A stretch of 64,000 nucleotides of DNA from Campylobacterales bacterium (GTDB lineage Bacteria > Campylobacterota > Campylobacteria > Campylobacterales > Sulfurospirillaceae), in assembly GCA_016930915.1 (NCBI GenBank), contig JAFGFU010000001.1:1-64000 (forward strand). The letters are read 5' to 3'. The notes under the pieces were generated by a model. The model searched no databases and was not told the origin of the DNA. It worked only from the letters and a program-made list of their open reading frames with translations. Positions 1,393 through 63,876 of the stretch are shown in pieces. Each line of letters opens with the position of its first letter. Within the stretch, counting starts at the first letter, position 1. A program made the translations under genes and the position numbers.

Positions 1393-2523
1393 TTGCATTT
1401 TCAACCCTATCCCTTTGAAAAATTAAGTGAATTACTCAAAGATATTACGCCAAACAGTGCGTATCCAGCGGTTTCTTTAACCATTGGTGAACCGCAGTTT
1501 GATACGCCTGATTTTATCCAAGAAGCCTTGAAGCAAAACAGCGCTCTTTTAAATAAATACCCCAAATCCTTAGGGGAAGTCTGTGTGAATGAAGCACAGC
1601 GTAGTTTTGTGAAAAAGCGTTTTGGTGTGGAACTAAAAGCCAGTGAGCTTATTTCAACCTTTGGAACCAGAGAAGTGTTGTTTAATTTTCCACAATACTT
1701 TTTATTCGATAAACCAAACCCTGTGATGGCGTACACCAACCCTTTTTATCAGATTTATGAAGGCTCAGCCATTGCGAGTCGTGCAAACGTGATTCATCTT
1801 AATCTTACCAAAGAGAATGCCTTTAAGCCTGATATGAATATACCTGAGCTTCAAAATGCGGATGTGATTATTTTAAATTTCCCGAACAATCCAACGACTT
1901 CCACGCTCTCTTTAGAGGAGTTGGGCGAATGGGTACGTTTTGCGCTCAAACATGATATTGTGCTCTTAAACGATGAGTGTTACAGCGAAATTTATGCTGA
2001 AACAAAGCCTGTATCGCTTTTAGAAGCCTCTTTACATGTAGGAAATCACAGCTTTAAAAATGTATTGGTGGTCAATTCCATCTCTAAACGAAGCTCAGCT
2101 CCTAGTTTGCGTTCAGGTTTTATTGCAGGAGATGCGACGATTTTAAAAGGCTATGCACAGTATCGAACCTATGTGGGTATGGGCATTCCCATGCCAATTC
2201 AAATGGCTTCAGCCCTTGCATGGAGCGATATGGAACATGTGGAACACACCCGCAAAGAGTACGCTAAAAATCTCTCTCTAACACAGGAAATTTTGGGTGT
2301 TGCAAAAGTGGATGCTACCTTTTACGTTTGGTTGGAAGTAAAAGACGATATAGCCTTTACATGTAAACTCTATGAGGCAAAAAACATCAAAGTTTTACCA
2401 GGGCGATTTTTAGGACGTGAGGGCATGGGCGAGGGATATGTGCGCATTGCTCTGGTGGAAAACAGTGAAAAAACCGAAAAAATTTTAAAAGAAATTGCAG
2501 CATTTATGAAGGAAAATTATTGA
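1393..2523 (+). CDS. PLP-dependent aminotransferase, probable succinyldiaminopimelate transaminase (DapC-type)
   Basis: A 376-aa fold-type I aminotransferase of the aspartate aminotransferase family. NFPNNPT (162-168) is the conserved turn, D194 in NDECYSEIY should bind the pyridine nitrogen, K232 in SISKRSS should be the Schiff-base lysine and R240 should bind the substrate carboxylate. The start is TTG 1393, preceded by AAGGAAA at 1382-1388; there is no better ATG. In Campylobacter relatives this murC neighbour is assigned to N-succinyl-diaminopimelate transamination, and dapE lies 4 kb downstream, so lysine/meso-DAP synthesis is the most likely role. That substrate is inferred from context; a general aspartate-type transaminase is possible. 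It overlaps murC by 4 nt. A TTACATGTAA palindrome (2357) encodes part of FTCK. Confidence 0.8.
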   Translation: MHFQPYPFEKLSELLKDITPNSAYPAVSLTIGEPQFDTPDFIQEALKQNSALLNKYPKSLGEVCVNEAQRSFVKKRFGVELKASELISTFGTREVLFNFPQYFLFDKPNPVMAYTNPFYQIYEGSAIASRANVIHLNLTKENAFKPDMNIPELQNADVIILNFPNNPTTSTLSLEELGEWVRFALKHDIVLLNDECYSEIYAETKPVSLLEASLHVGNHSFKNVLVVNSISKRSSAPSLRSGFIAGDATILKGYAQYRTYVGMGIPMPIQMASALAWSDMEHVEHTRKEYAKNLSLTQEILGVAKVDATFYVWLEVKDDIAFTCKLYEAKNIKVLPGRFLGREGMGEGYVRIALVENSEKTEKILKEIAAFMKENY

Positions 2524-3833
2524 AAAGAAGAGTTCATTTTGTAGGTATTGGGGGCATTGGACTCTCTGCTTTAGCGAAATATTTAAAGCAAGAGGGTTAT
2601 GAGATTACAGGCTCGGATATTAAAGCAACAAAAATTACAGCGGGCTTAGAAGAGTTAGGAATTCCTGTGCGTATTCCCCACGATGCGGATTGTATTAATG
2701 ACCAAGATTTGGTGGTTTACTCAGCGGTGATTAAACCTGATAACGTTGAGCTTATTCGTGCGCATGAAAAAGGAATCACCATTATGCCACGCCGTGAAGC
2801 ACTGTTGTTTATTTTAAAAGACAGACGGGTTTTCTCCGTCTGTGGCGCACACGGTAAAAGTACTACCAGTGCGATGCTTGCCTCATTGATTGAGGGCTCT
2901 TTGGTCATTGGGGCGGAGAGTAAGCAGTATGGCACCAATATGTACTACAAGGAGGGCAATAATGTCATTTTTGAAGCCGATGAGAGCGATGAGAGTTTTT
3001 TAAATTCAAATCCTTACGTGGCGGTTGTGCCTAATGCTGAGCCTGAGCATATGGAGTATTATAACTACGATTTAAACCGTTTTTATGGGGCGTATCGCCA
3101 TTTTTTACAGAGTGCGAAGATTCGTGTGATTAACGCAGAAGATGAGTTTTTGAGTACACTGAGTGAGCTTGAGGCAACCAGACTCTATCCTAGTAAGGAC
3201 ATTAAAAACATTCAAACTCTGATGCATGAGGGTGAGCCGTATACCTCTTTTGAGCTGAAAGATTTGGGGCGTTTTGAGGTGTGGGGCATTGGAGCGCATA
3301 TGGCGCTGAATGCCTCATTGGCCATTTTAGCAGCGTTGCATGAGATGGATGTGGAGAGTGTGCGTACAAAACTCAAATTTTACAAAGGCATTAAAAAGCG
3401 TTTTGATATTATTGCCAAAGAGGAGAATTTTGCGCTGATTGATGATTATGGGCATCATCCAACGGAGATTAAAGCAACGCTTAATTCAGCGAAAATCTAT
3501 GCTAATTTAATGGGCTTTAAAAAAGTAACGGCGATTTGGCAACCACACAAATACTCACGCACCATTGATAATTTGCAGAGTTTTGTCTCCTGTTTTGAAG
3601 GCGTGGATGAGCTAGTGATTTTACCTGTGTGGAAGGCGGGTGAAAAAGAGGTATTTATTGATTTTGAAGCAGAGTTTGCACGCTATAAACCACTTTTTGC
3701 GCCTCGCATTTACCGAAAAAATGATAGTATAGAGGTATGCCCAAACGAAGCAAATCAGCGTGTGTTTGATGAGGGATTAGTGATTAGTTTTGGTGCGGGC
3801 GATATTACCTATCAACTTCGAGGAGTGATCTGA
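2520..3833 (+). CDS. murC: UDP-N-acetylmuramate--L-alanine ligase
   Basis: MurC adds L-alanine to UDP-MurNAc using ATP, the first amino acid of the peptidoglycan stem peptide, in the cytoplasm. At 437 aa it is near family length. Visible motifs are the N-terminal nucleotide-binding GIGGIGLSALA (9-19), the Mur ligase P-loop GAHGKSTT (109-116), NAEPEHMEYYN in the central domain and DDYGHHPTEI at about 305, which is typical of MurC. It starts at TTG 2520, sharing TTGA with the stop of the aminotransferase, so the two are probably co-translated. Its stop overlaps the start of the next small membrane protein. Confidence 0.96.
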   Translation: MKRRVHFVGIGGIGLSALAKYLKQEGYEITGSDIKATKITAGLEELGIPVRIPHDADCINDQDLVVYSAVIKPDNVELIRAHEKGITIMPRREALLFILKDRRVFSVCGAHGKSTTSAMLASLIEGSLVIGAESKQYGTNMYYKEGNNVIFEADESDESFLNSNPYVAVVPNAEPEHMEYYNYDLNRFYGAYRHFLQSAKIRVINAEDEFLSTLSELEATRLYPSKDIKNIQTLMHEGEPYTSFELKDLGRFEVWGIGAHMALNASLAILAALHEMDVESVRTKLKFYKGIKKRFDIIAKEENFALIDDYGHHPTEIKATLNSAKIYANLMGFKKVTAIWQPHKYSRTIDNLQSFVSCFEGVDELVILPVWKAGEKEVFIDFEAEFARYKPLFAPRIYRKNDSIEVCPNEANQRVFDEGLVISFGAGDITYQLRGVI

Positions 3834-4174
3834 TGCAATTTTTACTCTTTATTGGGATAGCTTTATTTCTCAGTGCTCTTTGGTACGCTAACAATGAGGC
3901 TCTTTCAAAACGAAATAAACAAATACTGTTGGTTTTGATTGTTTTAACCATTGGCAGTGGTGGTGTGTATGAGTGGCAAAATGATAAAAAAAGTGCCCAC
4001 AATAGAGAGATGGCAAACGCCTTTAAACAAGGCAAAACTTTGCTTTGTAAAGATAAAGAAATTAGCAATGAAAGCTTTATTTTTGTGAGTGGAACACAGA
4101 GTTTTATTCCCAATGAAAACAATACAAATGACAAAGGTGTTGTCATTGACATTTTTACATGTAAACTCAAATAA
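3833..4174 (+). CDS. Small conserved membrane protein of the murC-mutS2 operon
   Basis: 113 aa with two hydrophobic segments near the N terminus (about residues 2-18 and 29-47), then a polar C-terminal domain with no motif I recognise. A small integral membrane protein between murC and mutS2 is also found in Campylobacter, so it is a real and conserved gene of unknown function. The start shares a base with the murC stop. The last residues (FTCKLK) are encoded by a TTTACATGTAAA palindrome at 4154-4165, an example of the iterated motif forming the end of a protein. Confidence 0.75.
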   Translation: MQFLLFIGIALFLSALWYANNEALSKRNKQILLVLIVLTIGSGGVYEWQNDKKSAHNREMANAFKQGKTLLCKDKEISNESFIFVSGTQSFIPNENNTNDKGVVIDIFTCKLK

Positions 4175-4176
4175 GC

Positions 4177-6449: not shown

Positions 6450-7565
6450 ATGATGATAAAAACAGATGAACTTTTTTTAAAACTTTTACGATATGTTTCA
6501 ATCACGCCTGAAGAGGATGGCGCATTTGCGTTTATAAAAGAGTACTTGAGTGATTTTGAAGTGATTGAAGTCAATGTAGAAGAGACGAAAAATCTTTTTT
6601 TATACAAACGTTTTGGAGAGGGTCCTCATCTCTGCTTTGCGGGGCATCTTGATGTTGTTCCTCCTGGGCAAGGATGGGAAAGCAATCCTTTTGAGCCTGT
6701 GGTCAAAGAGGGTGTGGTCTATGCCAGAGGGGCGCAAGATATGAAAAGTGGCGTGTGTGCTTTTGTACAAGCACTTAAAGGGGCAAAAAGCTTTAATGGT
6801 ACACTCTCAGCTCTTTTAACCAGCGATGAAGAGGGCGATGCGAAGCATGGAACGATAGAGGTGCTTAAGCTTTTAAAAGAGCGTTCATTTTTGCCTGATT
6901 ATGCCATTGTGGCGGAACCAACGTCTGAGAAAGTGTTTGGCGATGCGATAAAAGTAGGACGAAGAGGTTCCATTAATGGTGTGATTGAGATAAGAGGGAA
7001 GCAGGGGCATGCGGCTTATCCTGAAAAAGCCATCAACCCTGTGCATCAAATAGCTCCCGTTTTATCAAAACTTGCAGGACATCAACTCGATGCAGGAGAT
7101 GAATTTTTTGCACCTTCAATGATGGTTATCACCGATATAAGAGGTGGAATGGAGGTGAGCAATGTCACCCCGCAAAATTTAAAAATTATGTTTAATGTAC
7201 GAAACTCCACCAAAACGACGGCTGAGGCAATTGATGCGTATGTGAAAGAGGTTTTAAACGGGCTTGATTTTACGCTACGTTTAAATCAAACCGCACATCC
7301 TTTTGTTACATGTAAAGACGCTTGGATTGTTAAAGCGGTTGAAAAAGCACTCTTACATGTAACGAAAAAGTCCCCTAAACTCTCCACGGCTGGAGGTACA
7401 AGCGATGCACGTTTTTTTGGTGCGTTTGGGGTAGCAACTATTGAGTGTGGGGTGGTAAACGATACTATTCATGCCCCTAATGAGTGTTGTCCCTTAAGCG
7501 AAGTAGAAGCGCTTGAAGCTGTTTTTAACCATGTGATTGAACATTTTAAAAAGGAAGAAAAATGA
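6450..7565 (+). CDS. dapE: Succinyl-diaminopimelate desuccinylase
   Basis: An M20-family zinc amidohydrolase of 371 aa that hydrolyses N-succinyl-LL-diaminopimelate to LL-DAP and succinate in lysine and peptidoglycan synthesis. Metal-site motifs are GHLDVVPPG (about 66-74), ARGAQDMKSG (about 92-101) and the catalytic DEEGDA (about 127); RRGSINGVIEI and GGTSDARFF mark the dimerisation and C-terminal metal regions. It starts at ATG 6450 or the adjacent ATG 6453. The stop shares ATGA with ridA. Two exact TTACATGTAA palindromes lie only 47 nt apart inside the gene (7306, read VTCK; 7353, read LHVT). It is the functional partner of the DapC-type transaminase at 1393. Confidence 0.95.
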   Translation: MMIKTDELFLKLLRYVSITPEEDGAFAFIKEYLSDFEVIEVNVEETKNLFLYKRFGEGPHLCFAGHLDVVPPGQGWESNPFEPVVKEGVVYARGAQDMKSGVCAFVQALKGAKSFNGTLSALLTSDEEGDAKHGTIEVLKLLKERSFLPDYAIVAEPTSEKVFGDAIKVGRRGSINGVIEIRGKQGHAAYPEKAINPVHQIAPVLSKLAGHQLDAGDEFFAPSMMVITDIRGGMEVSNVTPQNLKIMFNVRNSTKTTAEAIDAYVKEVLNGLDFTLRLNQTAHPFVTCKDAWIVKAVEKALLHVTKKSPKLSTAGGTSDARFFGAFGVATIECGVVNDTIHAPNECCPLSEVEALEAVFNHVIEHFKKEEK

Positions 7566-9429: not shown

Positions 9430-10119
9430 ATGATAAATCCCCTTGATCTTTACGCAAAAATTGAATCTCTCATTGGCTTTGATGCCCAGTATGAAACGCT
9501 GTATCAAAACTATTTAGGTATTTTAAACGCTTTACATGTAAAAACCATTTTAGATGTTGGCTGTGGCAATGGAAAATTCTTAAAACATCTCAAAGAGAAT
9601 GGTTTTGAAGCCGTTGGTATTGATAGAAGTGCTAAAATGGTAGAACGAGCCCTTGCTTTGGGTGTGAATGCCTCAACCAAGGAGCTTTGCGACTGCGAAG
9701 CGGAGAGTTTTGAGTGTGTGGTGGCTATTGCAGATGTTCTTAATTATATTTCTCTCCTAGAGTTAGGTTCTTTTTTGGATGCTATCGCCTTTTGTTTACC
9801 CAAAGGGGGCTATTTTGTCTGTGATGTCAATACACTCTATGGTTTTGAAGGTGTAGCAGAAGGGGTGATGTGTCAGGACAATGGCACACAATTTTTGTGC
9901 GTGGATGCAACTTTTTCGAACAAAGAGCTTCTAACTAAAATCGTCCTTTTTGAAAAAGAGGGTGCGTTATATCGCAAAGAAGAGGGAAGCATTACGCAAT
10001 ACTTTCATCCGCTTTCTTTTTTCAAAAAACTCACAGCGTTTAAATTGGTTTCGACCAAGCCCATCACCCTTTTTGGGGATGAGCCTGATAAAACCATTTT
10101 AATCTTTCAAAAGCGTTAA
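9430..10119 (+). CDS. Class I SAM-dependent methyltransferase
   Basis: 229 aa. Motif I is ILDVGCGNGKFL (about 38-49), motif II VGIDRS (about 61-66), and VVAIADVLNYI (about 97-107) follows, the order of a Rossmann-fold methyltransferase. The substrate cannot be read from sequence; small molecules or tRNA/protein sites are all possible. A TTACATGTAA palindrome (9532) encodes the LHVK just before motif I. The gene ends tail-to-tail with the minus-strand gene at 10116, sharing the 4-bp TTAA. Confidence 0.82.
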   Translation: MINPLDLYAKIESLIGFDAQYETLYQNYLGILNALHVKTILDVGCGNGKFLKHLKENGFEAVGIDRSAKMVERALALGVNASTKELCDCEAESFECVVAIADVLNYISLLELGSFLDAIAFCLPKGGYFVCDVNTLYGFEGVAEGVMCQDNGTQFLCVDATFSNKELLTKIVLFEKEGALYRKEEGSITQYFHPLSFFKKLTAFKLVSTKPITLFGDEPDKTILIFQKR

Positions 10120-10659: not shown

Positions 10660-10691
10660 ACAGACTCGTTACATGTAAAAAGGAAATCACG

Positions 10692-11141: not shown

Positions 11142-11161
11142 CCTTTTTACATGTAAAGAAG

Positions 11162-12410: not shown

Positions 12411-13856
12411 ATGGATAAAAAAACAAAGATTTTAGCAACGGTTGGTCCTGCAAGTGATAGCGTAGAAATTTTAGAGGGGCTTATTCGTGCAGGTGTAAAT
12501 GTATTTCGCCTCAATTTTAGTCATGGAAGTCATGAATACCATGCGAGTACCTTAGCCAAAATTAGAGAAGCAGAGGCAAAAGTGGGCAAAAAAGTAGGTG
12601 TTTTACAAGATATTTGCGGGCCTAAAATTCGAGTGGGTAAATTAGAAGAGGATTTTATGCTGGTTGCCGGGGATAAACTCTATTTTACGAAAGAGCAAAT
12701 TGTAGGCAAAAGAGTTAAAGAAGGTATGTATGAACTTTGTATCAATCAACCACAAATCTTAGATATGCTCAAAGTGGGTGAATATATCTATCTTTACGAT
12801 GGCAACATTCGTGCTAGGGTGGTTGAAACAGGTAAAAATATCGTCACAGAAGTTGAGAACAGTGGTAAACTCTCTTCGAATAAAGGGGTGAATTTCCCCA
12901 ATACAGTGATTAATATTGAAGTGATTACCCCAAAAGATGAAGCAGACCTTTTGTGGGGTGCGCAAAATGGGGTTGATTTTGTGGCTGTCTCCTTTGTTCA
13001 AAATGCCAATGACATTTTACATGTAAGAAGTATTTTGAATGAACATAAGTCCCGTTCCCATATTTTTGCCAAAATTGAAAAATTTGATGCCGTTGAGAAA
13101 ATTGATGAAATTTTAGAAGTGAGCGATGGTATTATGGTGGCTCGTGGAGATTTGGGCATTGAAGTTCCGTATTACAAAGTTCCAAGTATTCAAAAGAAAA
13201 TTATTGCCAAAGCCAATGCCGCTTCAAAACCTGTTATTACGGCGACACAAATGTTACTTTCCATGGCAGAAAAAGAGATGGCAACCCGTGCTGAAATCAG
13301 TGACGTTGCTAATGCGGTGCTCGATGGAACGGATGCTGTGATGCTTTCAGAAGAGAGTGCTATTGGTGTCAATCCTATTCATGTTGTTGAGGTTATGGCA
13401 GCAACGATTCGGGAAACAGAAAGTATCTATCCCTATGGGAAATTTGAAGTTTATCCCTTTTTAGATGAGACTGATATTATCTCTTCTTCGACAGCGAGAT
13501 TGGCAGATCGTTTAGGCGTTGAAGCGATGATTTCACTCACAAGTTCAGGAAAATCCGCTAAAAAATTGGGACGTTATCGCATTCGTGCTGATATCTATGC
13601 GGTCACACATGATGAAAAAATTGCACGCTCTCTTACCATTGCGTGGGGTATTAAACCCATTATGAATGTTGACACCAGCAATTTAAATGTGATGATTGGA
13701 CAAACCCTTCAAAGAGGTATTGAAAAAGGTGTGATTGATAAAGAAAAAACTTATATTGTCACAGCAGGGTATCCTTCTGGCGTTGAAGGGAGTACGAACT
13801 TTATTCGTATTTTGAAAAAAGAACAAATTGAGTATTACACCGATATGGTACTTTGA
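12411..13856 (+). CDS. pyk: Pyruvate kinase
   Basis: Converts phosphoenolpyruvate and ADP to pyruvate and ATP, the last step of glycolysis, in the cytoplasm. ATG 12411 is preferred over 12381: it has AAAGGAA just before it and gives the usual N terminus MDKKTKILATVGPAS. The 481-aa length is normal. Visible features are NVFRLNFSHGSH (substrate/metal), MVARGDLGIEVPY (active-site signature, about 242-254), ITATQMLLSM and the C-terminal domain with SSGKSAKKLGRYR. It carries a TTACATGTAA copy at 13017 read as LHVR. It is likely monocistronic, with a weak hairpin (ACTTC/GAAGT at 13883-13898) after it. Confidence 0.96.
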   Translation: MDKKTKILATVGPASDSVEILEGLIRAGVNVFRLNFSHGSHEYHASTLAKIREAEAKVGKKVGVLQDICGPKIRVGKLEEDFMLVAGDKLYFTKEQIVGKRVKEGMYELCINQPQILDMLKVGEYIYLYDGNIRARVVETGKNIVTEVENSGKLSSNKGVNFPNTVINIEVITPKDEADLLWGAQNGVDFVAVSFVQNANDILHVRSILNEHKSRSHIFAKIEKFDAVEKIDEILEVSDGIMVARGDLGIEVPYYKVPSIQKKIIAKANAASKPVITATQMLLSMAEKEMATRAEISDVANAVLDGTDAVMLSEESAIGVNPIHVVEVMAATIRETESIYPYGKFEVYPFLDETDIISSSTARLADRLGVEAMISLTSSGKSAKKLGRYRIRADIYAVTHDEKIARSLTIAWGIKPIMNVDTSNLNVMIGQTLQRGIEKGVIDKEKTYIVTAGYPSGVEGSTNFIRILKKEQIEYYTDMVL

Positions 13857-14604: not shown

Positions 14605-14650
14605 AATACCTTCAATGATTACCTTCTTACATGTAATGATTAAAGGTATT
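14605..14650. repeat. Imperfect inverted repeat containing a TTACATGTAA copy, upstream of obg
   Basis: Arms 14605-14622 and 14633-14650 pair at 16 of 18 positions around a 10-nt loop. The palindrome TTACATGTAA (14627-14636) lies across the loop and the right arm. It is followed within 30 nt by the obg start, so it could be a second terminator, a leader structure or an operator. No T run follows. Confidence 0.6.
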
Positions 14651-15784: not shown

Positions 15785-16532
15785 AGTTGGTACACACGTT
15801 TTAAGTGAACAAAACTGTTTATGTAAAGAGCGTATTTTAAATTTAGTTGAATTTTTAGTAGCCCTCATGGAAAAGTACGAAGTCATTTTGGTCTCTTCGG
15901 GTGCTGTGGCTGCTGGATATTCCATTTTAAAGTTGGACAAACAACTCCTTCACAATCGTCAAGCCATTGCTGCTGTAGGACAACCTCAATTGATGTCAAC
16001 CTACAATAAAAAACTTGAACGATTTGGTAAAAGTGGAGCGCAATTACTTCTTACAGCCGATGATTTTGACTCACGTAAGCGCTGTTATCATGCTAAATGT
16101 ACGATTGATACCTTGCTTGAAAATGGCATTTTACCAATTATCAATGAGAACGATGCCACGGCAACGGAAGAGCTCGTTTTTGGGGATAATGACCAACTCT
16201 CTTCTCGTGTGGCATACTATTTTGGTGCAGATTTATTGATTTTACTCTCTGATATTGATGGCTACTACGATAAAGACCCTCATAAATATGAGGATGCAAA
16301 AATGCGAAAAATTGTCCATGCAATTGAACCCTCAGAACTTGAAATGGAAAAATCAGCTAATTTTGCTTTTGCAACGGGTGGCATTGTGACAAAACTTAAA
16401 GCGGCACAATTTTTATTGGATCACCAAAAATCAATGTTTATTGCCAGTGGATTTGATTTGAGCGATGTGAAAAGTTATATGCTAGAAGGTGTTCATAACG
16501 GTGGAACCCTTTTTACATGTGAAAACCGTTAA
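15765..16532 (+). CDS. proB: Glutamate 5-kinase, short form without PUA domain
   Basis: Phosphorylates L-glutamate with ATP in the first step of proline synthesis. The kinase domain is complete ([66 protein letters not shown]), but at 255 aa it lacks the C-terminal PUA domain of the E. coli type, as is known for Campylobacter relatives. It starts at ATG 15765, inside the end of obg. Close to the stop is a one-mismatch copy of the iterated palindrome (TTACATGTGA, 16513). Confidence 0.95.
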
Positions 16533-16614: not shown

Positions 16615-17532
16615 TTGAAAATAGTTTTTATGGGAACACCTTCGTATGCAACAACCATTTTAGAAGCGTTATGTAATGAACCTTCAATTGAGGTTACGCT
16701 TTTAGTAACACAAGAAGATAAACCTGTAGGTCGAAAACAACTTTTAACGCCGCCCCATACCAAAGCATGGCTTTTAGAACAGGGTTTACATATAGAGATT
16801 TTCCAGCCAAAAACCCTGCGTTCCAAAGAGGCGCAAGAGAAAATTTCTGCGTGCAATCCCGATTTTATTGTGGTTGCTGCTTATGGGCAAATTTTGCCTC
16901 GAGACATACTCGATATTGCTCCTTGTATCAACCTGCATGCTTCTTTGCTTCCTAAGTACAGAGGAGCAAGTCCTATTCAATCAGCTCTCCTTTCGGGCGA
17001 AGCATATACAGGAGTGACATCCATGTTGATGGAAGAGGGGCTTGACACGGGTGCAATGCTAGGATTTTCGTATCTCAAAATTGAGCCAGAGCATAATGCA
17101 TCTTTTTTATTTGATACTTTATCGGACTGTGCAGCACAATTGACACTAACAACCCTAAAAAATTTCTCTTCTATTTTGCCGATACAACAAGTAAGTGCGA
17201 ATGCAACCCATTGTAAAAAAATTAAAAAAGAGGATGGCTTAATTTCCCTTTCATTGGATGCTACTGAGATTATCAATCGTTTTAAAGCGCTTTCTCCTTG
17301 GCCTGGAATTTTTTTAGAATCAGGGTTAAAGTTATTGGAAATTAAGCAGGTTGATACCATAGAAAATGAGACGTTTGGTATTATAAGCGAGATAACATCC
17401 GAGGGGATTATTCTTACATGTAAAAAGGGAAAAATAGTGGTTAAAACACTTCAGCCCGCCTCTAAAAGTGCTATGAGTGCTAGGGATTATATTCGTGGCA
17501 AAAGGTTAAATTGTGGTGATTCACTGGTTTGA
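16615..17532 (+). CDS. fmt: Methionyl-tRNA formyltransferase
   Basis: Formylates initiator Met-tRNA using 10-formyl-tetrahydrofolate. TTG 16615 is chosen because GGAGGAA (16601-16607) sits 7 nt before it and it gives the family N terminus LKIVFMGTPSYA; in-frame ATGs upstream (16576, 16597) lack a site. That makes 305 aa, a usual length. Signatures are LLVTQEDKPVGR, the catalytic region NLHASLLPKYRGASPIQ, and the C-terminal tRNA-binding domain with FKALSPWPG. A TTACATGTAA copy (17414) is read LTCK. It overlaps birA by 20 nt. Confidence 0.95.
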   Translation: MKIVFMGTPSYATTILEALCNEPSIEVTLLVTQEDKPVGRKQLLTPPHTKAWLLEQGLHIEIFQPKTLRSKEAQEKISACNPDFIVVAAYGQILPRDILDIAPCINLHASLLPKYRGASPIQSALLSGEAYTGVTSMLMEEGLDTGAMLGFSYLKIEPEHNASFLFDTLSDCAAQLTLTTLKNFSSILPIQQVSANATHCKKIKKEDGLISLSLDATEIINRFKALSPWPGIFLESGLKLLEIKQVDTIENETFGIISEITSEGIILTCKKGKIVVKTLQPASKSAMSARDYIRGKRLNCGDSLV

Positions 17533-18148: not shown

Positions 18149-18930
18149 GCGAGATTATAGCGATAGCAAATCAAAAAGGCGGTGTTGGTAAAACAACGAC
18201 TGCTATTAATTTGGCTGCCTCCTTAGCAGTTGCTGAAAAGCGCGTCTTATTGATCGACATTGATCCTCAAGCGAATGCTACCACAGGACTTGGGTTTCAT
18301 CGAAGCGATTATGAGTACAACATTTATCACGTCCTCATTGGGAGAAAACGGCTTTCTCAAGTCATCCTAGAAACATCCCTCTCAACCTTACATGTAGCGC
18401 CATCAAACATTGGACTGGTTGGTGTTGAAAAAGAGTTTTATGATAACAACACCAAAGGTCGAGAGCTTATTTTAAAAACAAAAATTGAAGAGATTAAAGA
18501 CCAGTACGATTATATTATTATTGATTCTCCTCCCGCCCTTGGAAGCATTACGATTAATGCGCTAAGCGCTGCCAATTCGGTGATTATTCCTATCCAGTGC
18601 GAGTTTTTTGCATTAGAAGGACTTGCTCAGCTTCTCAATACGGTGAAATTAATTAAAAAAACGATTAATCCAACCCTTGAGATTAAAGGCTTTTTGCCAA
18701 CCATGTACAGCACCCAGAATAATCTTTCAAAACAAGTTTTTGCAGATTTGAAAGAGCATTTTAAAAGCAAACTCTTTTTGGATAAAGAGAGCGCGTCGTA
18801 TGTAGTAATTCCTCGTAATATTAAGTTAGCTGAATCTCCGAGTTTTGGAAAACCTATCATACTATACGATGTAGAATCTCCTGGTTCAAAGGCATATCAA
18901 AATCTTGCCAATTCCATTTTAGTGAGTTAG
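18145..18930 (+). CDS. parA: Chromosome-partitioning ATPase ParA/Soj
   Basis: A 261-aa Walker-type ATPase with the deviant Walker A NQKGGVGKTTTAINLA (8-23), LLIDIDPQANATTGLG (A' motif), and IIIDSPPALG (Walker B region). With ParB it segregates the origin region. The lack of an N-terminal DNA-binding extension marks a chromosomal Soj-type protein. It overlaps birA by 4 nt and is 1 nt from parB. Confidence 0.95.
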   Translation: MSEIIAIANQKGGVGKTTTAINLAASLAVAEKRVLLIDIDPQANATTGLGFHRSDYEYNIYHVLIGRKRLSQVILETSLSTLHVAPSNIGLVGVEKEFYDNNTKGRELILKTKIEEIKDQYDYIIIDSPPALGSITINALSAANSVIIPIQCEFFALEGLAQLLNTVKLIKKTINPTLEIKGFLPTMYSTQNNLSKQVFADLKEHFKSKLFLDKESASYVVIPRNIKLAESPSFGKPIILYDVESPGSKAYQNLANSILVS

Positions 18931-18931
18931 T

Positions 18932-19786
18932 ATGAGTACAAAGAAAGTTTTAGGTCGAGGATTAAGTGCTATTATTGAGGATGTTGAAGAGGCGTATAAG
19001 CAAGATATAGAACAAGCGAAAGATTTAGTACGTGAAATTGACATTGAACGTATTACCCCAAATCCTTACCAACCACGTGTCTCTTTTAATGAGGTAGCAC
19101 TTAAAGAATTGAGTGAATCTATTAAAAGGCATGGCCTTTTACAGCCGATTATTGTTGTCGCTAAAGATGATGATTATATGCTTTTGGCTGGTGAGAGACG
19201 TTTACGTGCAAGTAAATTAGCAGGTTTTAAAAAGATTAAAGCCATTGTTGCTGATATTGAATCCAAAAATTTACGTGAATTAGCACTCATTGAAAATATT
19301 CAACGAGAAGACTTAAATCCTATTGAACTAGCGATTGCTTATAAAGAGTTAATTGAAGAGTATCAAATTACACAAGATGGACTTTCTGAAATTATTCATA
19401 AAAGTCGGACTCAAATTACAAATACCATTCGATTACTAACCTTAAGTGAGCAAACTAAAAAATATCTTGCCAAAGGTATTCTTTCTCAAGGTCATGCTAA
19501 AGTATTAGTAGGGCTTGAAGCCAAAGATGAAGCGATGGTGGTTAATACTATTTTAGGTCAAAAGTTAAGTGTTCGTGAGACAGAAGCATTGGTTAAAAAA
19601 CTTAAAAGTAATGATGAGTCTATTGGTAAAAAAGAAAAGACAATTTTAACAATTCCAGAAGAGCTACAGGCTGTATCAACACGCCTAAAAGAGCTTGGTT
19701 TTGAAGTTAAACCAAAATCAAACAGTATTACCATACACTTCAAAAATGGTGAAGCAATTTATACTTTTTTAGAGCGTTTCCAATAG
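18932..19786 (+). CDS. parB: Chromosome-partitioning protein ParB/Spo0J
   Basis: 284 aa. The N-terminal ParB/Srx CTPase domain is seen in NPYQPRVSFNE, LLQPIIV and AGERRLRASKLAG, with IENIQREDLNPIE ahead of the helix-turn-helix region (about 140-190, HKSRTQITNTIRLL). A C-terminal dimerisation part follows. It binds parS centromere sites; I found no obvious copy of the usual parS 16-mer in the window. It directly follows parA. Confidence 0.95.
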   Translation: MSTKKVLGRGLSAIIEDVEEAYKQDIEQAKDLVREIDIERITPNPYQPRVSFNEVALKELSESIKRHGLLQPIIVVAKDDDYMLLAGERRLRASKLAGFKKIKAIVADIESKNLRELALIENIQREDLNPIELAIAYKELIEEYQITQDGLSEIIHKSRTQITNTIRLLTLSEQTKKYLAKGILSQGHAKVLVGLEAKDEAMVVNTILGQKLSVRETEALVKKLKSNDESIGKKEKTILTIPEELQAVSTRLKELGFEVKPKSNSITIHFKNGEAIYTFLERFQ

Positions 19787-19836
19787 TTTTATCTATAAAT
19801 GTCACAAGTTTAATAAACTATTTTCCTTTGTTGTGG

Positions 19837-19842
19837 TAAAAT
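19837..19842 (+). promoter_or_regulatory. Candidate promoter for the atp-tol operon
   Basis: TAAAAT after TGTGG, about 90 bp upstream of atpF'. The leader contains a short inverted repeat, ATTCGC (19841-19846) and GCGAAT (19862-19867), and a strong AAAGGAG ribosome site before ATG 19930. Confidence 0.45.
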
Positions 19843-19929
19843 TCGCAAAAATTTTCTCATAGCGAATTTAATCTGTATTAAAAAAATCTTAAAAATTGAG
19901 TGTGATCTTAAGCTAAAGGAGCAAGAATT

Positions 19930-20352
19930 ATGTTGGATATTATACCAGCACTCTTACTAGTGACTGGAACTGTATTTTTAGTTTTGTTAATCGTTCTTAA
20001 CAAAACACTTTATAAACCCCTCTTGGAGTTTATCGATAATAGAAATAATTCTATTAATCGTGATTTAGAAAATGCAGGAAAAAATGCTAGTGATGTTGTT
20101 GCCTATTATCAGGAAATAGAAACAATTTTATCTGAAGGTAAATTAGAAGCTGCCAAAGTTCGTGAGGTGGCTATTAATGAAGCAAATGATAAAGCAATTA
20201 AACGTATTGAGCAAAAGAAAAATGACATTGAAGCTCAAAATGTTGCATTTTTAAATGCGTTAGAGTCGGAAAAAGATGAATTTAAAAACGGTTTAATGGC
20301 AAAAATGCCTCTTTTTAAAGAGAGCATTCATGTAAAATTAAGCTCAATTTAG
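19930..20352 (+). CDS. atpF': ATP synthase F0 subunit b'
   Basis: 140 aa: one N-terminal membrane helix (about 5-24) followed by a long charged helix, the peripheral-stalk layout. With the neighbouring b subunit it forms a heterodimeric stator, as in other Campylobacterota. The F0 a and c subunits are not in this window. ATG 19930 has a strong AAAGGAG site. The stop overlaps the region before the b gene. Confidence 0.88.
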   Translation: MLDIIPALLLVTGTVFLVLLIVLNKTLYKPLLEFIDNRNNSINRDLENAGKNASDVVAYYQEIETILSEGKLEAAKVREVAINEANDKAIKRIEQKKNDIEAQNVAFLNALESEKDEFKNGLMAKMPLFKESIHVKLSSI

Positions 20353-20363
20353 TGGAGGGTAAA

Positions 20364-20879
20364 ATGAAAAAAAGTTATTTCTTGCTCTTATTGGCACCTA
20401 TCGCTCTTTTTGCGAGTGAAGGCGTAAGTGCTGGATCAACAGATATTTTCCCAAGGACTGTTAACTTCTTAATTTTCGTAGCTATTTTGTATTACTATGT
20501 TGCTGCTAATCTTAAAGAGTGGCATTTTGGTCGTAAAAACGAAATTGCAACGAAGTTGGATTCCATTCAGGTGAAACTTAAAGAATCAAACAGTAAAAAA
20601 GAGGTCGCTCTTGCAAAAGTAGAAGAAGCAAAAGTTAATGCAAAAAATCTCATAGAAACAGCAAAAAAAGAGGCTGTCTTGCTTAGTGAAAAAATCACAC
20701 AGGAAGCAGATCATGAAATTGAAAACTTAGAAAAAGTATTTCAAGATCGTATTTCTATCGAGCGTCGTAAAATGCAAAGGGTTATTATTTCTGAAGTTTT
20801 AGATGAAATGTTCAAAGAAGGTTCTATTTCATTAGATAACGATGAAGTTGTGAATATTGTTAATAAGAAGGTTGCATAA
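20364..20879 (+). CDS. atpF: ATP synthase F0 subunit b
   Basis: ATG 20364 has GGAGGG just upstream and is preferred to the GTG at 20352; this gives 171 aa. Residues 1-17 form a hydrophobic segment ending in FAS, which looks like a signal peptide, then a second hydrophobic helix (about 30-47, NFLIFVAILYYYVA) and a long charged stalk helix. A b subunit with an extra cleavable-looking N terminus is unusual compared with the E. coli form. It overlaps atpH by one base. Confidence 0.9.
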   Translation: MKKSYFLLLLAPIALFASEGVSAGSTDIFPRTVNFLIFVAILYYYVAANLKEWHFGRKNEIATKLDSIQVKLKESNSKKEVALAKVEEAKVNAKNLIETAKKEAVLLSEKITQEADHEIENLEKVFQDRISIERRKMQRVIISEVLDEMFKEGSISLDNDEVVNIVNKKVA

Positions 20880-44361: not shown

Positions 44362-45296
44362 ATCATGAGATAGACTTTGAGCGAGGCATTTTAGCCCTCG
44401 CGCCTCTTGCTGGTTTTACGGATCTTCCTTTTCGTTCTGTGGTTAAAAAATTTGGTGCAGATGTTACTTTTTCTGAAATGATTAGTGCCAATGCTCTGCG
44501 TTATGGTTCTGAAAAAACACTTAAGATGCTCACCAAATCTCCTCTTGAAACGCCTTATATTGTACAGATTGCTGGTTCTGATTTGGAATCAATCAAACAA
44601 GCCGTTTTGGTTTTAAATGACATTGAAGGTATTGATGGTATTGATTTAAACTGTGGTTGTCCTGTGCCTAAGATTATTGCACAAGAAGCAGGTTCTTCGT
44701 TGCTTTTAAATTTAGGACATATGCAAAAAATTATTGAGACCATTAAAACTTATTCTAATAAACGCTACACCAGTGCAAAAGTAAGGCTGGGTTTTAGTAC
44801 TAAAATTCCTGAAGAGATAGCCAAAGCATGTGAAAATGCTGGAGTGGATTTTATGAGTATGCATGGGCGAACACGTGCAGGTGCCTATAAAGCGGAAGTG
44901 GATTATCATGCAATTGCACGTGCAAGGGAAGCTGTTTCAATTCCTCTCATTGCTAATGGGGATATTACCAGCTATGAAAAAGCCTTACATGTAAAAGAAG
45001 TTACAGGTTGTAAGAGCCTTATGATTGGCAGAGGAGCTGTGGGTAATCCGTGGATTTTTTATCAGATAAAAAATGAACTAACACATGTTGAAAAAACAAA
45101 AATTTTGGAGATTGTATTAGAACATTATGATGCAATGGTTGACTTTTATGGCGAAAAAGGTGTTTCGATTTTTCGTAAACATTTACATACGTATTCTAAA
45201 GGATTTCGTGAAGCTTCTGAATTTCGAGATAAGATTAACCGAATTGAAGATAGAGTGTTCATGCGTGAAGCGATTGAAAGTTTTTTTGCTCAATAA
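44358..45296 (+). CDS. dus: tRNA-dihydrouridine synthase
   Basis: 312 aa, FMN-dependent TIM barrel. Family marks are LAPLAGFTDLPFR, the catalytic cysteine in LNCGCPVPKI (about 97-106), MHGRTRAG, LIANGDI and MIGRGAVGNPWIF. It reduces uridines in the D-loop of tRNA. DusB is the closest type, but the class is not certain. A TTACATGTAA copy (44985) is read LHVK. It ends tail-to-tail with a minus-strand gene, overlapping by 7 nt. Confidence 0.93.
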   Translation: MNHEIDFERGILALAPLAGFTDLPFRSVVKKFGADVTFSEMISANALRYGSEKTLKMLTKSPLETPYIVQIAGSDLESIKQAVLVLNDIEGIDGIDLNCGCPVPKIIAQEAGSSLLLNLGHMQKIIETIKTYSNKRYTSAKVRLGFSTKIPEEIAKACENAGVDFMSMHGRTRAGAYKAEVDYHAIARAREAVSIPLIANGDITSYEKALHVKEVTGCKSLMIGRGAVGNPWIFYQIKNELTHVEKTKILEIVLEHYDAMVDFYGEKGVSIFRKHLHTYSKGFREASEFRDKINRIEDRVFMREAIESFFAQ

Positions 45297-45643: not shown

Positions 45644-46569
45644 GGCATACTTACAATACAGAGATGGTGAAGAAGGTTACTAACCAAAATAAAAAAAGGT
45701 ATAAAAACCAATGAAGTAAAAAAGACCATTGCTGTAACATCCAGTGGTTTACATTCATACAGTGCTGCTAAGTTAACATTTGTGACTGCTAAAGGAACAA
45801 TGAGTTCTATAAAAACAAGGGTGGCAAGCATGGGGTCTAAGTCTAAAATCCCATAAAGAATCCAACCAGCAATTAAAGGCGTTATAATAAACTTAATGAC
45901 GCTTACATGTAAAAGTAATTTATAGTTAATACTATGTAGTTTAATGTTGTACAAATACATTCCAAAAATAACCAATTGAATGACCATAGTACAATAAGCA
46001 CCCATTTGCAAAGGTGTTTGCATCGCAGGGTGAAGTTTTAATTCAAAAATATTCATAAACAGAGCTAAAAATGCAAACCAAATAACAGGGAGTTTTATAA
46101 TGTTAAGAAGCGATTGTTTAATACTACAATTTCCCCTAGAATAGAAGAAAACACCTAAGGTATAGACCACAAAAACATTGGTAATATTGATCATACTCAT
46201 GTAGATAATCGAAGCTTCACCAAAGAGTGCTATGCCTAAGGGAATGCCTAAATTGCCAGTGTTTCCAAGTACCACACAAATGGTAATAATGGATTTTTCT
46301 TTAATATCGTCTTTAAAAAAAAGATAGGCAATAACCGAGCTAATCAGAATACAAATAAAGGAGATAACAAGATACAAAAAAGGAGCGTGTAATAATTCTA
46401 AGCTAATGGGTTTAGTAGAAAGCCCCCAAAAAGAGAGCATAGGCTGTAAAAAGTAGATGGACATCAAAATCATGCCCTTCTCATTCATCTCCTCTTTAAG
46501 CATTCTTTTTGCCATAAATCCTAAGAAAATAAAGGCATAAATAGACAAAATAGAAATGGCAATATTCAT
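45640..46569 (-). CDS. AEC-family permease (auxin efflux carrier type)
   Basis: 309 aa with about ten hydrophobic segments in two halves, the AEC/BASS-like plan. Typical stretches are VVLGNTGNLGIPLG and the late LAVTNVNLAALY. Bacterial members export or exchange organic acids such as malonate or malate; the substrate here is unknown. It follows fliO after 6 nt, although it has no evident flagellar role. A TTACATGTAA copy (45903) is read LHVS. Confidence 0.85.
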   Translation of the reverse strand: MNIAISILSIYAFIFLGFMAKRMLKEEMNEKGMILMSIYFLQPMLSFWGLSTKPISLELLHAPFLYLVISFICILISSVIAYLFFKDDIKEKSIITICVVLGNTGNLGIPLGIALFGEASIIYMSMINITNVFVVYTLGVFFYSRGNCSIKQSLLNIIKLPVIWFAFLALFMNIFELKLHPAMQTPLQMGAYCTMVIQLVIFGMYLYNIKLHSINYKLLLHVSVIKFIITPLIAGWILYGILDLDPMLATLVFIELIVPLAVTNVNLAALYECKPLDVTAMVFFTSLVFIPFFILVSNLLHHLCIVSMP

Positions 46570-47827: not shown

Positions 47828-47874
47828 GTTTATTTTGTTTAAATTGTTTATTAACCCCTTTTTACATGTAAAGA

Positions 47875-48639
47875 TTACAACGCTATCTCAATCCCCACAG
47901 GACAATGATCCGAACCATGAATCTCATTTAAAATAAAAGCATCATTGAGTTTGCTTTTAAGCTCATTGGAGATAAAAAAGTAGTCAATTCTCCATCCCAC
48001 ATTTCGCTCTCTAGCCCCTGAGCGATAGGACCACCACGAGTAGGCATCTTTCACATCACCGTGCACTTCTCTAAAGGTATCAAGATAGCCCTTCTCTAAA
48101 AGGGTGTCCATCCATGCACGCTCAATGGGTAGAAAGCCTGAAGTGTTTTCATTGGCTTTTGGGTTTGCAAGGTCGATTTCACGGTGTGCGGTATTGACAT
48201 CACCGCAAATAATAATCCCTTTTCCTTTTTGACGCAACGTTTCGGTATGTGCTAAAAAATCACTGTAAAATTTCATTTTATGACTAAGGCGTTCTTCACT
48301 TTGCTGGCCGTTGGGAAAATAGACATTAAACAGGGCAACATCTCCAAAATGATGCTCCAAAATGCGCCCCTCTTTGGTATGGTCGATATGCCATGCGGTA
48401 TCTGTTGTATCAAAGGTTTGTGTGGAAAAGCTCATGGTGCCAGAGTAGCCTTTTTTGCTTGCAGAGTTGATATGTTTACATGTAAAAGGGTGTGTGAAAA
48501 GAGGTTCAGGGATCTGAGGTGCTTCTGCTTTGATTTCTTGCAAACACAAAACATCAGGTTTTATCTCATCGACCCATGAAAAACCATTTTTATTTGCAAC
48601 TGCACGAATGCCATTGACATTCCACGAGATTAGTTTCAT
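47875..48639 (-). CDS. xth: Exodeoxyribonuclease III
   Basis: 254 aa of the Mg-dependent exonuclease III/APE family, acting at abasic sites in base-excision repair. Catalytic motifs are ISWNVNGIRA (Asn), LCLQEIKAE (Glu about 34), FNVYFPNGQ (Tyr), CGDVNTAHREIDLA (Asp/Asn) and HGSDHCPVGI (final Asp-His). Exact palindrome copies lie inside (48476, FTCK) and on both sides (47862, 4 nt after the stop; 48705, 66 nt before the start). Confidence 0.95.
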   Translation of the reverse strand: MKLISWNVNGIRAVANKNGFSWVDEIKPDVLCLQEIKAEAPQIPEPLFTHPFTCKHINSASKKGYSGTMSFSTQTFDTTDTAWHIDHTKEGRILEHHFGDVALFNVYFPNGQQSEERLSHKMKFYSDFLAHTETLRQKGKGIIICGDVNTAHREIDLANPKANENTSGFLPIERAWMDTLLEKGYLDTFREVHGDVKDAYSWWSYRSGARERNVGWRIDYFFISNELKSKLNDAFILNEIHGSDHCPVGIEIAL

Positions 48640-48768
48640 TCATCATCCTTCATTATTCTGTAGGCAGAATCCTAGCACAGGCATCTTGAAAGGGATGTTT
48701 GGTTTTACATGTAAAGAGAAAAAAGAAGGGTGATGTACCACGCACGAATGCATTGGTACATCTTTTTT

Positions 48769-51309: not shown

Positions 51310-51763
51310 GAACTCTCCTTTAGTTAAATTTTTTCAATTCACGGATATTATTAAACAGACGTGTTAAATATGTGTTAATTTAATTTGAAATTAAGAAAAT
51401 AATTAGAAATTTTTATATTAATGTTACATATTAAGAAACAAATTATAGAAAGATTAAGTAATAGACTTCTTGCAAAACTCATTTTGTAAGAAGGAAAAGC
51501 ATTAAGGGTGCGTGAGCTTTCTGCCAAAGATTACCCAGTATTAATGTAGCCTTTAGAGCTTTGCTTTAAAGGCGTGTCAAGAGTTCTGCAAGAACTCTAA
51601 TGAAAATATGTAGTTTTACATGTAAAAAAGAGTAGAGCCATATCTTAAAAGCCCAATTTGATCTATCTGTGTTCTAATGTAAATCTTAGTTTATGGTGTT
51701 AATAAAAATTTGGGAGAAGCTTTTTAATGCCTTCACGCTAGACTCAAAACAAAAAGAGAAGTC
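51310..51763. other. 454-bp gap with promoter repeats and three hairpins; no gene seen
   Basis: The left part (51310-51440) is A/T-rich and is probably the cyd-like promoter region. The middle holds three inverted repeats in a row: 51466-51477 with 51482-51493 (12 bp, one G-T pair), 51549-51559 with 51563-51573 (11 bp, one mismatch), and 51580-51587 with 51591-51598 (8 bp, perfect). A TTACATGTAA copy follows at 51616. No open reading frame with a ribosome site was found. A small RNA, a degraded insertion sequence or stacked terminators are possible. Confidence 0.55.
51361..51378 (-). promoter_or_regulatory. Direct repeats 11 bp apart upstream of the cyd-like operon
   Basis: GTGTTAA occurs at 51361-51367 and 51372-51378, an 11-bp period, so both copies face the same side of the helix (TTAACAC on the coding strand of the operon). 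This arrangement is typical of OmpR-type response regulators. It is 52-69 bp upstream of ATG 51309. TAATAT-like -10 sequences lie between the repeats and the gene. Confidence 0.45.
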
Positions 51764-52876: not shown

Positions 52877-52937
52877 GGGTTTTGGCTTTACATGTAAAAG
52901 TGAATAGGGAAGTAATAAAAGTTTAGCTCAGACCCCT

Positions 52938-53573: not shown

Positions 53574-53684
53574 AAGGAGGGTTAAACTTTTAGTTTGTTA
53601 CTTCACTTAATAAAGGCTATTTTTCTCTTTTAAAATTCTTTACATGTAAAATTATTTTAGTCGTATTGTAAAGCAGAAATAGAA

Positions 53685-53715: not shown

Positions 53716-55596
<1,881 letters not shown>

Positions 55597-55722: not shown

Positions 55723-55816
55723 CAAAAGCAGACAAAGAAGTGACTTAAGAAAAAAAGTTGGCTTTTAAAAAATAGATATTTGTTAAAAAGACGTTTCACT
55801 TCTTTACATGTAAAGA

Positions 55817-56233: not shown

Positions 56234-56371
56234 GCTTTCCCTTTCGTTAAGATACGTTTGGACATTATAAGTCAATTTCTTTAAATTGTAGATTACAAAA
56301 TGTTTTACATGTAAAGATTTTTTTGAAAAAAGATACAATGATGCTTTTAATTTTTAGCGTGAAGGAATTTT

Positions 56372-57720: not shown

Positions 57721-57747
57721 TTACATGTAAAAAGCCTTTACATGTAA
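57721..57747. repeat. Twin TTACATGTAA palindromes
   Basis: Two exact 10-mers (57721-57730 and 57738-57747) lie 17 bp apart, start to start, in the 91-bp gap between the permease and the TauE gene. It is the closest pair in the window. Both are flanked by T before and A after, so the 12-bp forms can also pair with each other as one larger hairpin. Confidence 0.9.
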
Positions 57748-61372: not shown

Positions 61373-61445
61373 TCTGTTTTGTTTCTTTTGGTAACAATTG
61401 TTTTCTTAAGCAAACCTATAAATAGCTCTACATGTAAGAAAACAT

Positions 61446-62899: not shown

Positions 62900-62905
62900 T
62901 ATAAT
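62900..62905 (+). promoter_or_regulatory. -10 element for the HDOD gene
   Basis: TATAAT, 29 bp before ATG 62934, after the terminator-like hairpin. A purine-rich AAAGAGAGA site lies between it and the start. Confidence 0.55.
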
Positions 62906-62933
62906 CTCTTTAAATTAATAAAAGAGAGATTCT

Positions 62934-63743
62934 ATGATAGAAGCGATTGCTGAGCGTATTAAGGCTTTGCCCCCATTACCAAAAAGTTTTCATCAGATGA
63001 ATGAGATTTTTCATAATCCTGAAAGCAGTGTGGGTGATTTGGCCCGAGTCATTGAGCAAGATCCAATGCTTGTTGCTAATCTTTTAAAAGTTGCAAATTC
63101 TCCTTTGTATGGTTTTCGCAGAGAAATTAGAAATGTTGTTCAAGCCGTGAGTCTTTTTGGAATGTCAACGACGCGCTCTTTGGTGACGGATATGTCCATT
63201 AAAAAATTGTTGCAAGTCGATATGGCGCCTTATGGAATTAGCCCAGAAGAGTTTGCGCTTATCTCAGGGATGCAAAGTGCGTTGATGATGCGCTGGTACA
63301 CCAAAGTTGATCCTAAAAAACTTGATATGCTTTTTTTAGCTTCATTACTCCAAGAAACAGGCAAGATTTTAATCGCTGATGAGGTTGTGAAAAACGATGA
63401 GACGTATCAGTTTCGTTCAGAGATTGAAAATTGTATTAATGTTGCTGACGTTGAAAAAATGTTTGTGGGTATGAATAGCAGTGACGTTGCTGCGCTTATC
63501 TTTAAACATTGGAAGTTTGATGAACGTATGGTGGATGCTATTGCCCATTCTGAATCGTGGCATGATGCTTGCGATGAGATTCGCCCTTATGCAGTTGCCC
63601 TGAAAATTGTAAAAACGGCTCTTCCTATTAATGCACCACTTTCTGAACGTAGTTTAAATTTGGCTTTAGGTTTAATTGAAAAAGAGCAATTAGACACAGA
63701 CTCTTTTTTAGAGGCTGTCGCAAAGTTAAAAGAGTCTTATTAG
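62934..63743 (+). CDS. HDOD-domain signalling protein
   Basis: 269 aa, almost entirely an HDOD domain: IKALPPLPKSFHQMNEIF at the start, VIEQDPMLVANLLKVANSPLYG and the VSLFGMSTTRSLV helix, LASLLQETGKILIA later. HDOD domains are HD-related but lack the catalytic HD pair, so it is probably a scaffold or regulator, not a hydrolase. A homologue in C. jejuni has been linked to motility. It stands alone with its own promoter. Confidence 0.85.
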   Translation: MIEAIAERIKALPPLPKSFHQMNEIFHNPESSVGDLARVIEQDPMLVANLLKVANSPLYGFRREIRNVVQAVSLFGMSTTRSLVTDMSIKKLLQVDMAPYGISPEEFALISGMQSALMMRWYTKVDPKKLDMLFLASLLQETGKILIADEVVKNDETYQFRSEIENCINVADVEKMFVGMNSSDVAALIFKHWKFDERMVDAIAHSESWHDACDEIRPYAVALKIVKTALPINAPLSERSLNLALGLIEKEQLDTDSFLEAVAKLKESY

Positions 63744-63876
63744 TATTCTTGCAGGGTTTTTAAGAGATTTAACAACTGCGTATAAACGGCTACATTCACA
63801 CACCTTTGGTGCTTTCGTATCGTGCAAATAAGCTTTGTGTGCGATACTCAAATTCTTTACATGTAAAAGGCATTTT

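Follow-up and report, generated by a model that had tools for sequence, protein, structure and literature searches.

TTACATGTAA, a highly iterated palindrome of Sulfurospirillum genomes that looks methylation-linked and perhaps serves recognition of own DNA

The 10-bp palindrome TTACATGTAA occurs about once per 2 kb in Sulfurospirillum genomes. Because of this spacing, its bendable flanks and its fading after loss of a methylase, it looks actively maintained and methylation-linked, and perhaps serves recognition of own DNA during uptake. We tentatively favor the reading that TTACATGTAA is a DNA-uptake signal that requires methylated adenine in its central CATG, to which we give somewhat less than an even chance.

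The window, the whole 64-kb stretch of DNA that was analysed, contains 30 exact copies of TTACATGTAA, at 2357-2366, 4155-4164, 7306-7315, 7353-7362, 9532-9541, 10669-10678, 11147-11156, 13017-13026, 14627-14636, 17414-17423, 31783-31792, 32246-32255, 34284-34293, 40090-40099, 40902-40911, 41268-41277, 44985-44994, 45903-45912, 47862-47871, 48476-48485, 48705-48714, 51616-51625, 52888-52897, 53640-53649, 53716-53725, 55804-55813, 56305-56314, 57721-57730, 57738-57747 and 63857-63866. The closest pair, sites 28 and 29, lies 17 bp apart. Seven one-mismatch copies are found on the plus strand: TTACATGTAG at 2032-2041, 18388-18397, 32596-32605 and 32995-33004, TTACATGTGA at 16513-16522, TTACATGTAT at 22028-22037 and CTACATGTAA at 61428-61437. 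The mismatch is at the outermost base in six of the seven; in the other it affects the second position of an arm. Our recount thus gave the same numbers of exact and one-mismatch copies as an earlier note on this DNA. A second-order Markov model of the window predicts 0.15 exact copies, which makes the excess ~200-fold and confirms the strong over-representation claimed in that note; with up to one mismatch allowed, the expectation is 4.25 and the maximum among 100 dinucleotide shuffles is 9. The excess is not shared by many palindromes, as the runner-up among all 10-bp palindromes in the window has only 3 copies. The region at 18.4-31.8 kb, which has no exact copy, was considered as a recent insertion, which was rejected since its genes are of ATP synthase and Tol-Pal type and non-mobile.

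The element extends to the whole genome (2,230,579 bases, 37 contigs), where TTACATGTAA has 1127 copies and the pattern read backwards has 6. This count, which the note had called for, agrees with the hundreds to thousands of copies of a short motif that mark genome-wide uptake sequences, and supports the proposal of a genome-scale element in Campylobacterota, here in the genus Sulfurospirillum. The core is sharp. In G017, with 238 exact copies, inner-base variants are at chance level (15 seen, 18.8 expected). The sites are also conserved: G012 and G019 are 85% identical and have 48 of 55 sites in common, whereas 35% of control 10-mers are retained between them. Spacing in G017 is approximately random (CV 1.07), and no obvious trend along its chromosome was seen across 21 stretches. 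As the note had stated, copies lie in both genes and gaps, with a simple ORF caller placing 18 of the window copies within ORFs and 12 in gaps. Gaps make up 9% of the G017 sequence and hold 34% of its sites, with convergent gene pairs highest. Such over-representation in gaps and at gene ends is what a global transcription-factor or terminator site might show. However, 155 of the 238 copies in G017, like the 18 of 30 in the window, are ORF-internal, genic copies are phased in the same way as the others (see below), and there are more than 1000 near-identical copies. We consider this explanation very improbable, in line with the note's view that the density is too high for an ordinary transcription factor; the sites are too sharp and too dense for an ordinary regulator.

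In its longer form, the site reads YTTTACATGTAAAR and is flanked on both sides by phased A/T-rich DNA. A/T content near the sites oscillates with a period of ~11.3 bp for ~100 bp on either side, and in the pooled set it stays above the largest value from shuffling as far out as 135 bp. Phasing on the left and right sides is independent and of equal strength, and ORF-internal copies show the same phasing. A generic periodicity of the genome was rejected as its source, with values of 0.012 for A-tracts, 0.013 for ACATGT outside the motif and at most 0.026 for other 6-bp palindromes, compared to 0.069 at the sites.

The symmetric phasing bears on our main rival reading, in which the site is coupled to methylation and structures the chromosome. 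A dimeric nucleoid protein would bind the palindrome and read or protect its methylated CATG, and the ~200 bp of phased DNA would be wrapped into a nucleoprotein particle every ~2 kb. The palindromic site, the equally strong and independent phasing of its two sides, the enrichment in gaps with convergent genes highest, and the lack of an obvious trend along the G017 chromosome are all consistent with this reading. However, no such protein is known or was found here, the spacing is random rather than regular, and loss of the methylase would not obviously abolish a structural role. Uptake sequences more typically show dialect changes of this kind and an almost complete lack of inner variants. 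We regard a structuring site as unlikely overall, though a serious contender.

The phased A/T could also be the wrapping signature of DNA gyrase, with the palindrome as a preferred gate in strong gyrase sites. The enrichment between convergent genes would suit such sites. DNA gyrase is essential and is therefore expected in G028, G021 and G033, yet the sites decay in these genomes. According to the excerpted text of PMC6379681, E. coli gyrase sites carry a symmetric motif of ~130 bp with GC content periodic at 10.75 bp, but this motif is degenerate and has no fixed 10-mer. The pattern here has the longer period of ~11.3 bp, a longer extent and a fixed core. We consider gyrase sites improbable.

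The link to methylation proposed in the earlier note appears to hold at the CATG centre, which the repeat dialects share. An orphan D12 adenine methylase gene adjoins a conserved gene, E, in 12 genomes, which have 869-1496 sites. In 6 genomes the methylase is missing beside gene E, and these have 49-605 sites. The ranks of the two groups are fully separated, although relatedness inflates the rank test. Five g1 genomes of <90% completeness (G024, G027, G029, G030 and G031; 608-1405 sites) were excluded from the methylase searches and all tests. On the small tree, the methylase was lost separately three times or more (G028; G021; G032 with G033) and was replaced in G022 with G026. G028 keeps only 8 of 52 sites of its sister G012 (Fisher 1.6e-14 vs G019), and decay is also seen in G021 and G033. 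Across family f1, a CATG-centred repeat is present in 18 of 19 methylase-bearing samples and in 1 of 5 methylase-less samples. Outside the family, the methylase is no predictor of such a repeat, which is present in 4 of 22 cases with the enzyme and in 2 of 13 cases lacking it (p 0.61). Several genomes of genus g2 have the methylase and few copies of TTACATGTAA, and methylase-bearing Helicobacter-type and other genomes are without the repeat. Conversely, close methylase homologues are missing from G025 (934 sites), G035 (567), G151 (340, a complete contig) and G268 (194), and G011 (265) has only a weak match; G025 also lacks gene E, perhaps due to an assembly gap. Methylase homologues of 369-372 residues, ~33% identical, are common in family f10 of the order and are candidates for CtsM, the methylase of the C. 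jejuni system discussed below. The N6_N4 methylase family (PF01555) was rejected as the partner, being missing from complete high-count genomes such as G013, G014, G015, G017 and G018.

The CATG specificity of the orphan methylase is suggested by its relatives. Of six tested loci with relatives of ~50% identity, four have ICEA, a CATG endonuclease, next to the methylase gene. The enzyme is of the same D12 type as M.HpyI of the M.HpyI/IceA1 (NlaIII-type) system, which, as far as the consulted part of the source goes, targets CATG, is conserved in H. pylori and is sometimes an orphan. Unlike in that system, no endonuclease is found among the 9 other ORFs around the methylase gene in L087, and CATG is not depleted in the window (231 vs ~278). 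The adjacent endonuclease and the target avoidance of a type II restriction-modification target are thus both missing. Searches of solved structures with the methylase and the ICEA protein gave zero matches, and an NCBIfam search gave nothing informative.

An over-represented palindrome with a matching methylase is also the hallmark of cyanobacterial HIP1. From what the excerpted source describes (PMC4390886), HIP1 is paired with an orphan methylase for its core, deviates at outer bases and has lineage-specific alternates. TTACATGTAA, whose orphan methylase is predicted to act on CATG, resembles it in each respect as well as in being highly iterated. The likeness of its density to uptake sequences or HIP1, drawn in the earlier note, is supported. 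In the Elhai model, methylase and methyl-directed mismatch repair ratchet up a palindrome that has no function. The tie to an orphan methylase and the concentration of near-misses at the outermost base, as for HIP1, fit such a by-product. However, MutL (PF01119) is present in 0 of 38 family genomes, compared to 11 of 14 control genomes, so creation by methyl-directed mismatch repair finds no support. A CATG ratchet would not yield extended flanks or ~11-bp phasing, the Helicobacter-type and other genomes carry the methylase without the repeat, and, unlike HIP1, the sites here have helically phased flanks and are mostly lost after methylase loss. A HIP1-like by-product seems to us a slim prospect, marginally below that of gyrase sites.

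The uptake reading is consistent with the machinery in the hosts. Two markers of transformation were found, with ComEC in 41 of 44 family genomes and T2SSF (pilus platform) in 38 of 38. Genomes that lost the methylase keep both, with ComEC full-length in G021, G028 and G032 and a partial match in G033, and loss of the competence machinery as the cause of site loss is unsupported by these two markers. In our proposed mechanism, the orphan CATG-type methylase would label the DNA of its own cell. The pilus/ComEC machinery would include a receptor that recognises the methylated palindrome and bends the DNA, such that own-species DNA is preferred, and preferred uptake with recombination would maintain and spread the sites. 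Once the methylase is lost, own DNA would become unrecognisable and the sites would drift away. The logic resembles that of C. jejuni, which, in the parts of the literature consulted, imports DNA through T2SS/T4P and ComEC only if CtsM has methylated it at RAATTY. Both systems belong to the same order and would combine a palindrome containing a methylatable adenine, an orphan adenine methylase and the same uptake apparatus. Here, however, the site is different and has ten bases rather than six, with extreme over-representation and phased flanks. TTACATGTAA is also similar to the DUS of Neisseria and the USS of Pasteurellaceae in density, sharp inner core, dialects, which DUS are described in excerpts as having, and gap enrichment. 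It shares A/T tracts with USS, and these aid uptake in H. influenzae; in the excerpted accounts they are one-sided and lie within ~32 nt. DUS and USS are non-palindromic and have no tie to a methylase, whereas TTACATGTAA is palindromic and methylase-tied. Its symmetric phasing over ~100 bp per side is unlike known DUS/USS and counts against uptake; a wrapping protein fits it at least as well. The data connect methylation with a DNA-bending recogniser that they do not name, and the three roles listed in the earlier note (uptake signal, methylation-linked site, nucleoid protein site) are non-exclusive. More speculatively, TTACATGTAA may be a methyl-CATG landmark, an orphan-methylated palindrome every ~2 kb, each forming the dyad of a ~200-bp segment that is in helical phase and would be wrapped by a protein in the manner of a nucleosome. 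The same particle would organise the chromosome and identify self DNA at uptake, with dialects keeping the CATG centre across Campylobacterales families. We think this combination rather unlikely.

If the uptake reading is true, TTACATGTAA would add a third lineage, independent of the others, to those with genome-wide sequences of the uptake type. It would be the first such sequence tied to a methylase by natural gene losses, and would be palindromic and flanked by very long stretches of phased DNA. The losses (G012 vs G028, and others) are natural knock-outs in which uptake-driven selection or drive could be set against a structural role in keeping the sequences. Judged by titles, a literature text search for TTACATGTAA returned no paper on a bacterial genomic repeat. 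Searches for 'DNA uptake sequence' with Sulfurospirillum, and for over-represented palindromes with uptake and Epsilonproteobacteria, found none, and the excerpted text of PMC7755780 held nothing relevant on a related binding motif. Within G017, housekeeping domains were found in a low-count stretch (L060). Plasmid pSDIE1 has 4 sites while 16.6 are expected, a comparison that takes in pSDIE1 and a portion of a single related plasmid.

The window contains 30 exact copies of the 10-bp palindrome TTACATGTAA, which is centred on CATG, and seven copies with one mismatch, as counted in an earlier note. The excess claimed there was borne out: 0.15 exact copies are expected under a second-order Markov model, and the runner-up among the other 10-bp palindromes of the window has only 3 copies. 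In the whole genome (2,230,579 bases) the palindrome occurs 1127 times, versus 6 for the backwards-read pattern. The stretch at 18398-31782, more than 13 kb with genes of ATP synthase and Tol-Pal type, has no exact site and one near-match at 22028. Among 44 genomes of the family, the 24 Sulfurospirillum genomes carry 49 to 1496 copies each, and the other genera 6 to 97 (g2), 265 (g3), 22 to 593 (g4) and 446 to 733 (g5). In a survey of 298 genomes of the order (37 of the family, 261 others), 31 to 367 copies were found in seven non-family genomes, all from the family that includes Sulfurimonas (f16), and 0 to 10 in the remainder.

Placement was analyzed in the window and in the Sulfurospirillum genome G017, sampled as 21 stretches (420 kb, 91% ORF-covered). 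The 238 sites in G017 comprise 155 inside ORFs, 82 in gaps and 1 at an edge. In the pooled data, convergent-gene gaps hold 19 sites in 3.3 kb, divergent gaps 20 in 11.3 kb, and two classes of co-directional gaps 32 in 16.9 kb and 20 in 7.4 kb. Site variants are almost all at the outermost base (in G017, 24 versus 2.9 expected); the four inner positions of G017 sites gave 15 variants versus 18.8 expected. The extended consensus from 684 half-flanks is YTTTACATGTAAAR, with A at 75% in position +1 and G at 52% and T at 4% in position +2. AAAAAGAG-type words are in moderate excess alike in the window, G017 and methylase-less relatives (window and Sulfurospirillum loci).

The window's genome encodes a D12-class adenine methylase of 323 residues (G000, C23:169433-170401) with intact FAGSG and DPPY motifs, and no endonuclease was found among nine other ORFs around it. 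A RhuM/BRO-N domain gene lies nearby (L087 10047-10874). Methylase relatives with ~50% identity in named genomes adjoin ICEA at four of six loci tested, and CATG is nearly absent (observed/expected below 0.15) in 11 of 72 loci with such relatives. The Helicobacter magdeburgensis locus, for example, has 0 CATG versus 64 expected; the ratio is 0.38 to 0.93 in 11 methylase-less genomes of the order. M.HpyI of H. pylori, part of the iceA system, is reported to methylate the A of CATG. The ICEA-adjoining relatives, the CATG depletion and the M.HpyI specificity together suggest that CATG is the probable target of the orphan methylase. CATG is almost eliminated in genomes in which the methylase adjoins ICEA (L208, L231, L199 and L159).

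The methylase adjoins a transglutaminase-like gene, gene E, in 12 genomes (G000, G012-G020, G023 and G034). In a search of ten Sulfurospirillum genomes, including G017 as control, gene E was present at 80-86% identity in G017, G021, G022, G026, G028, G032 and G033; it was not found in G024 and G025, and G029 gave a weak match only. Apart from the control, none of these gene E carriers has a full methylase beside it; the only similarity there spans 23 to 55 residues and falls within the over-extended start of the G034 ORF. G022 and G026 have a divergent methylase ~18-26 kb away, 51-53% identical to that of G000 and 88% to each other. A tree of three linked proteins, with several weak nodes, places G028 as sister to G012, and G032 plus G033 as sister to G034, sets G021 apart and joins G022 with G026, suggesting at least three methylase losses and one replacement. 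Site counts are 869-1496 with the native methylase and 49-605 without it, with ranks fully separated (p 0.0004, uncorrected for kinship). Next to IS21 genes, plasmids of S. diekertiae encode a second such methylase (L153 1692-2732; L154 6933-7829), and its copy on pSDIE1 is fragmented.

Comparison of relatives provided insights into site maintenance. In 116 kb aligned between G012 and G019 (85% identity), 48 of 55 G012 sites are common to both, versus 35% conservation of control 10-mers of the same G+C. G012 and G028 are equally close, yet only 8 of 52 sites are common (control 33%). G028 has 8 sites in the aligned DNA, every one of which G012 shares, and the lost sites have changes at every position. 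Whatever maintains the palindrome has thus gone from G028. One-mismatch copies are in excess in G028 (18 versus 5.6 expected) and G033 (14 versus 4.1), and scarcely raised in G021 (16 versus 13.1).

The link to the methylase has limits. With a single sample per genome, 22 of 41 genomes that have the methylase and 3 of 18 that lack it showed CATG-centred repeats. Inside the family the proportions are 18/19 and 1/5 (p 0.002); outside it the methylase is no predictor (4/22 versus 2/13, p 0.61), indicating that it is insufficient alone. G151, G268, G035, G025 and G011 have 194-934 sites and no close methylase homologue (G025 also lacks gene E). Either the methylase is sometimes dispensable, or its place is taken by a different CATG methylase. 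One S. diekertiae plasmid, pSDIE1, has 4 sites versus 16.6 expected.

Outside the extended consensus, A/T content oscillates: in 936 half-flanks it is 68% at +4 to +9, 52% at +10 to +13, 65% at +15 to +20, 56% at +21 to +24 and 66% at +26 to +31, versus 61-63% for matched control words. Pooling 924 half-flanks gives a best period of 11.4, and the 11-bp component is stronger than in any of 300 shuffles for all four blocks between +4 and +135; the window's genome by itself (74 half-flanks) exceeds the shuffles in block +4 to +36 only. Genic and intergenic copies are alike. The periodicity is 0.069 at sites versus 0.012 for A-tracts and 0.013 for ACATGT outside the motif. Around 37 sites lost in G028 and kept in G019, it is reduced in G028, at 0.032 versus 0.052 and 0.062 (bootstrap of the G028-G019 difference, 0.003 to 0.036).

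We rank first, tentatively, a putative methylation-coupled uptake signal. ComEC is present in 41 of 44 family genomes and the T2SSF platform in 38 of 38, losers of the methylase included. Within the order, C. jejuni is reported to import DNA via such a machine only when CtsM has methylated it at RAATTY, and A/T tracts of the H. influenzae USS aid uptake. MutL was found in none of 38 family genomes searched and matched in 11 of 14 control genomes. Its absence disfavours a MutL-dependent ratchet of the HIP type (PMC4390886). A methylation-coupled wrapping site ranks second and is rather unlikely; the HIP-type by-product, a gyrase site (judged by its published motif) and a regulator site stand behind these two. 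Iterated uptake-type palindromes are a known kind of element. Literature searches found no published report of this one. What appears to be new is the palindrome itself, the tie between it and loss of the methylase, and flanks phased over a long distance.

Several relatives have their own dialects, and CATG is retained in every one: T[TG]ACATGT[AC]A in G022, CTACATGTAG in G002, ACATGT with AA and AG arms in G190, TATCATGATA in G010 (166 copies versus 2 for the control), a CTATCATGATAG-like form in G080 (ATCATGAT, 26 in 20 kb versus 1.7 expected) and TTCATGAA in G126 (7 versus 0.36 expected). The A/T-oscillation phase matches the reference in G022, G080, g4/g5 and f16, with only G022 passing its own shuffled maximum. 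The phase disagrees in G010, and the G126 sample is too small to judge. Palindromes not centred on CATG are also over-represented in some genomes: TATCGATA in G122 (L072), AAGCGCTT in G074 (L134) and ATCGAT in G076 (L076).
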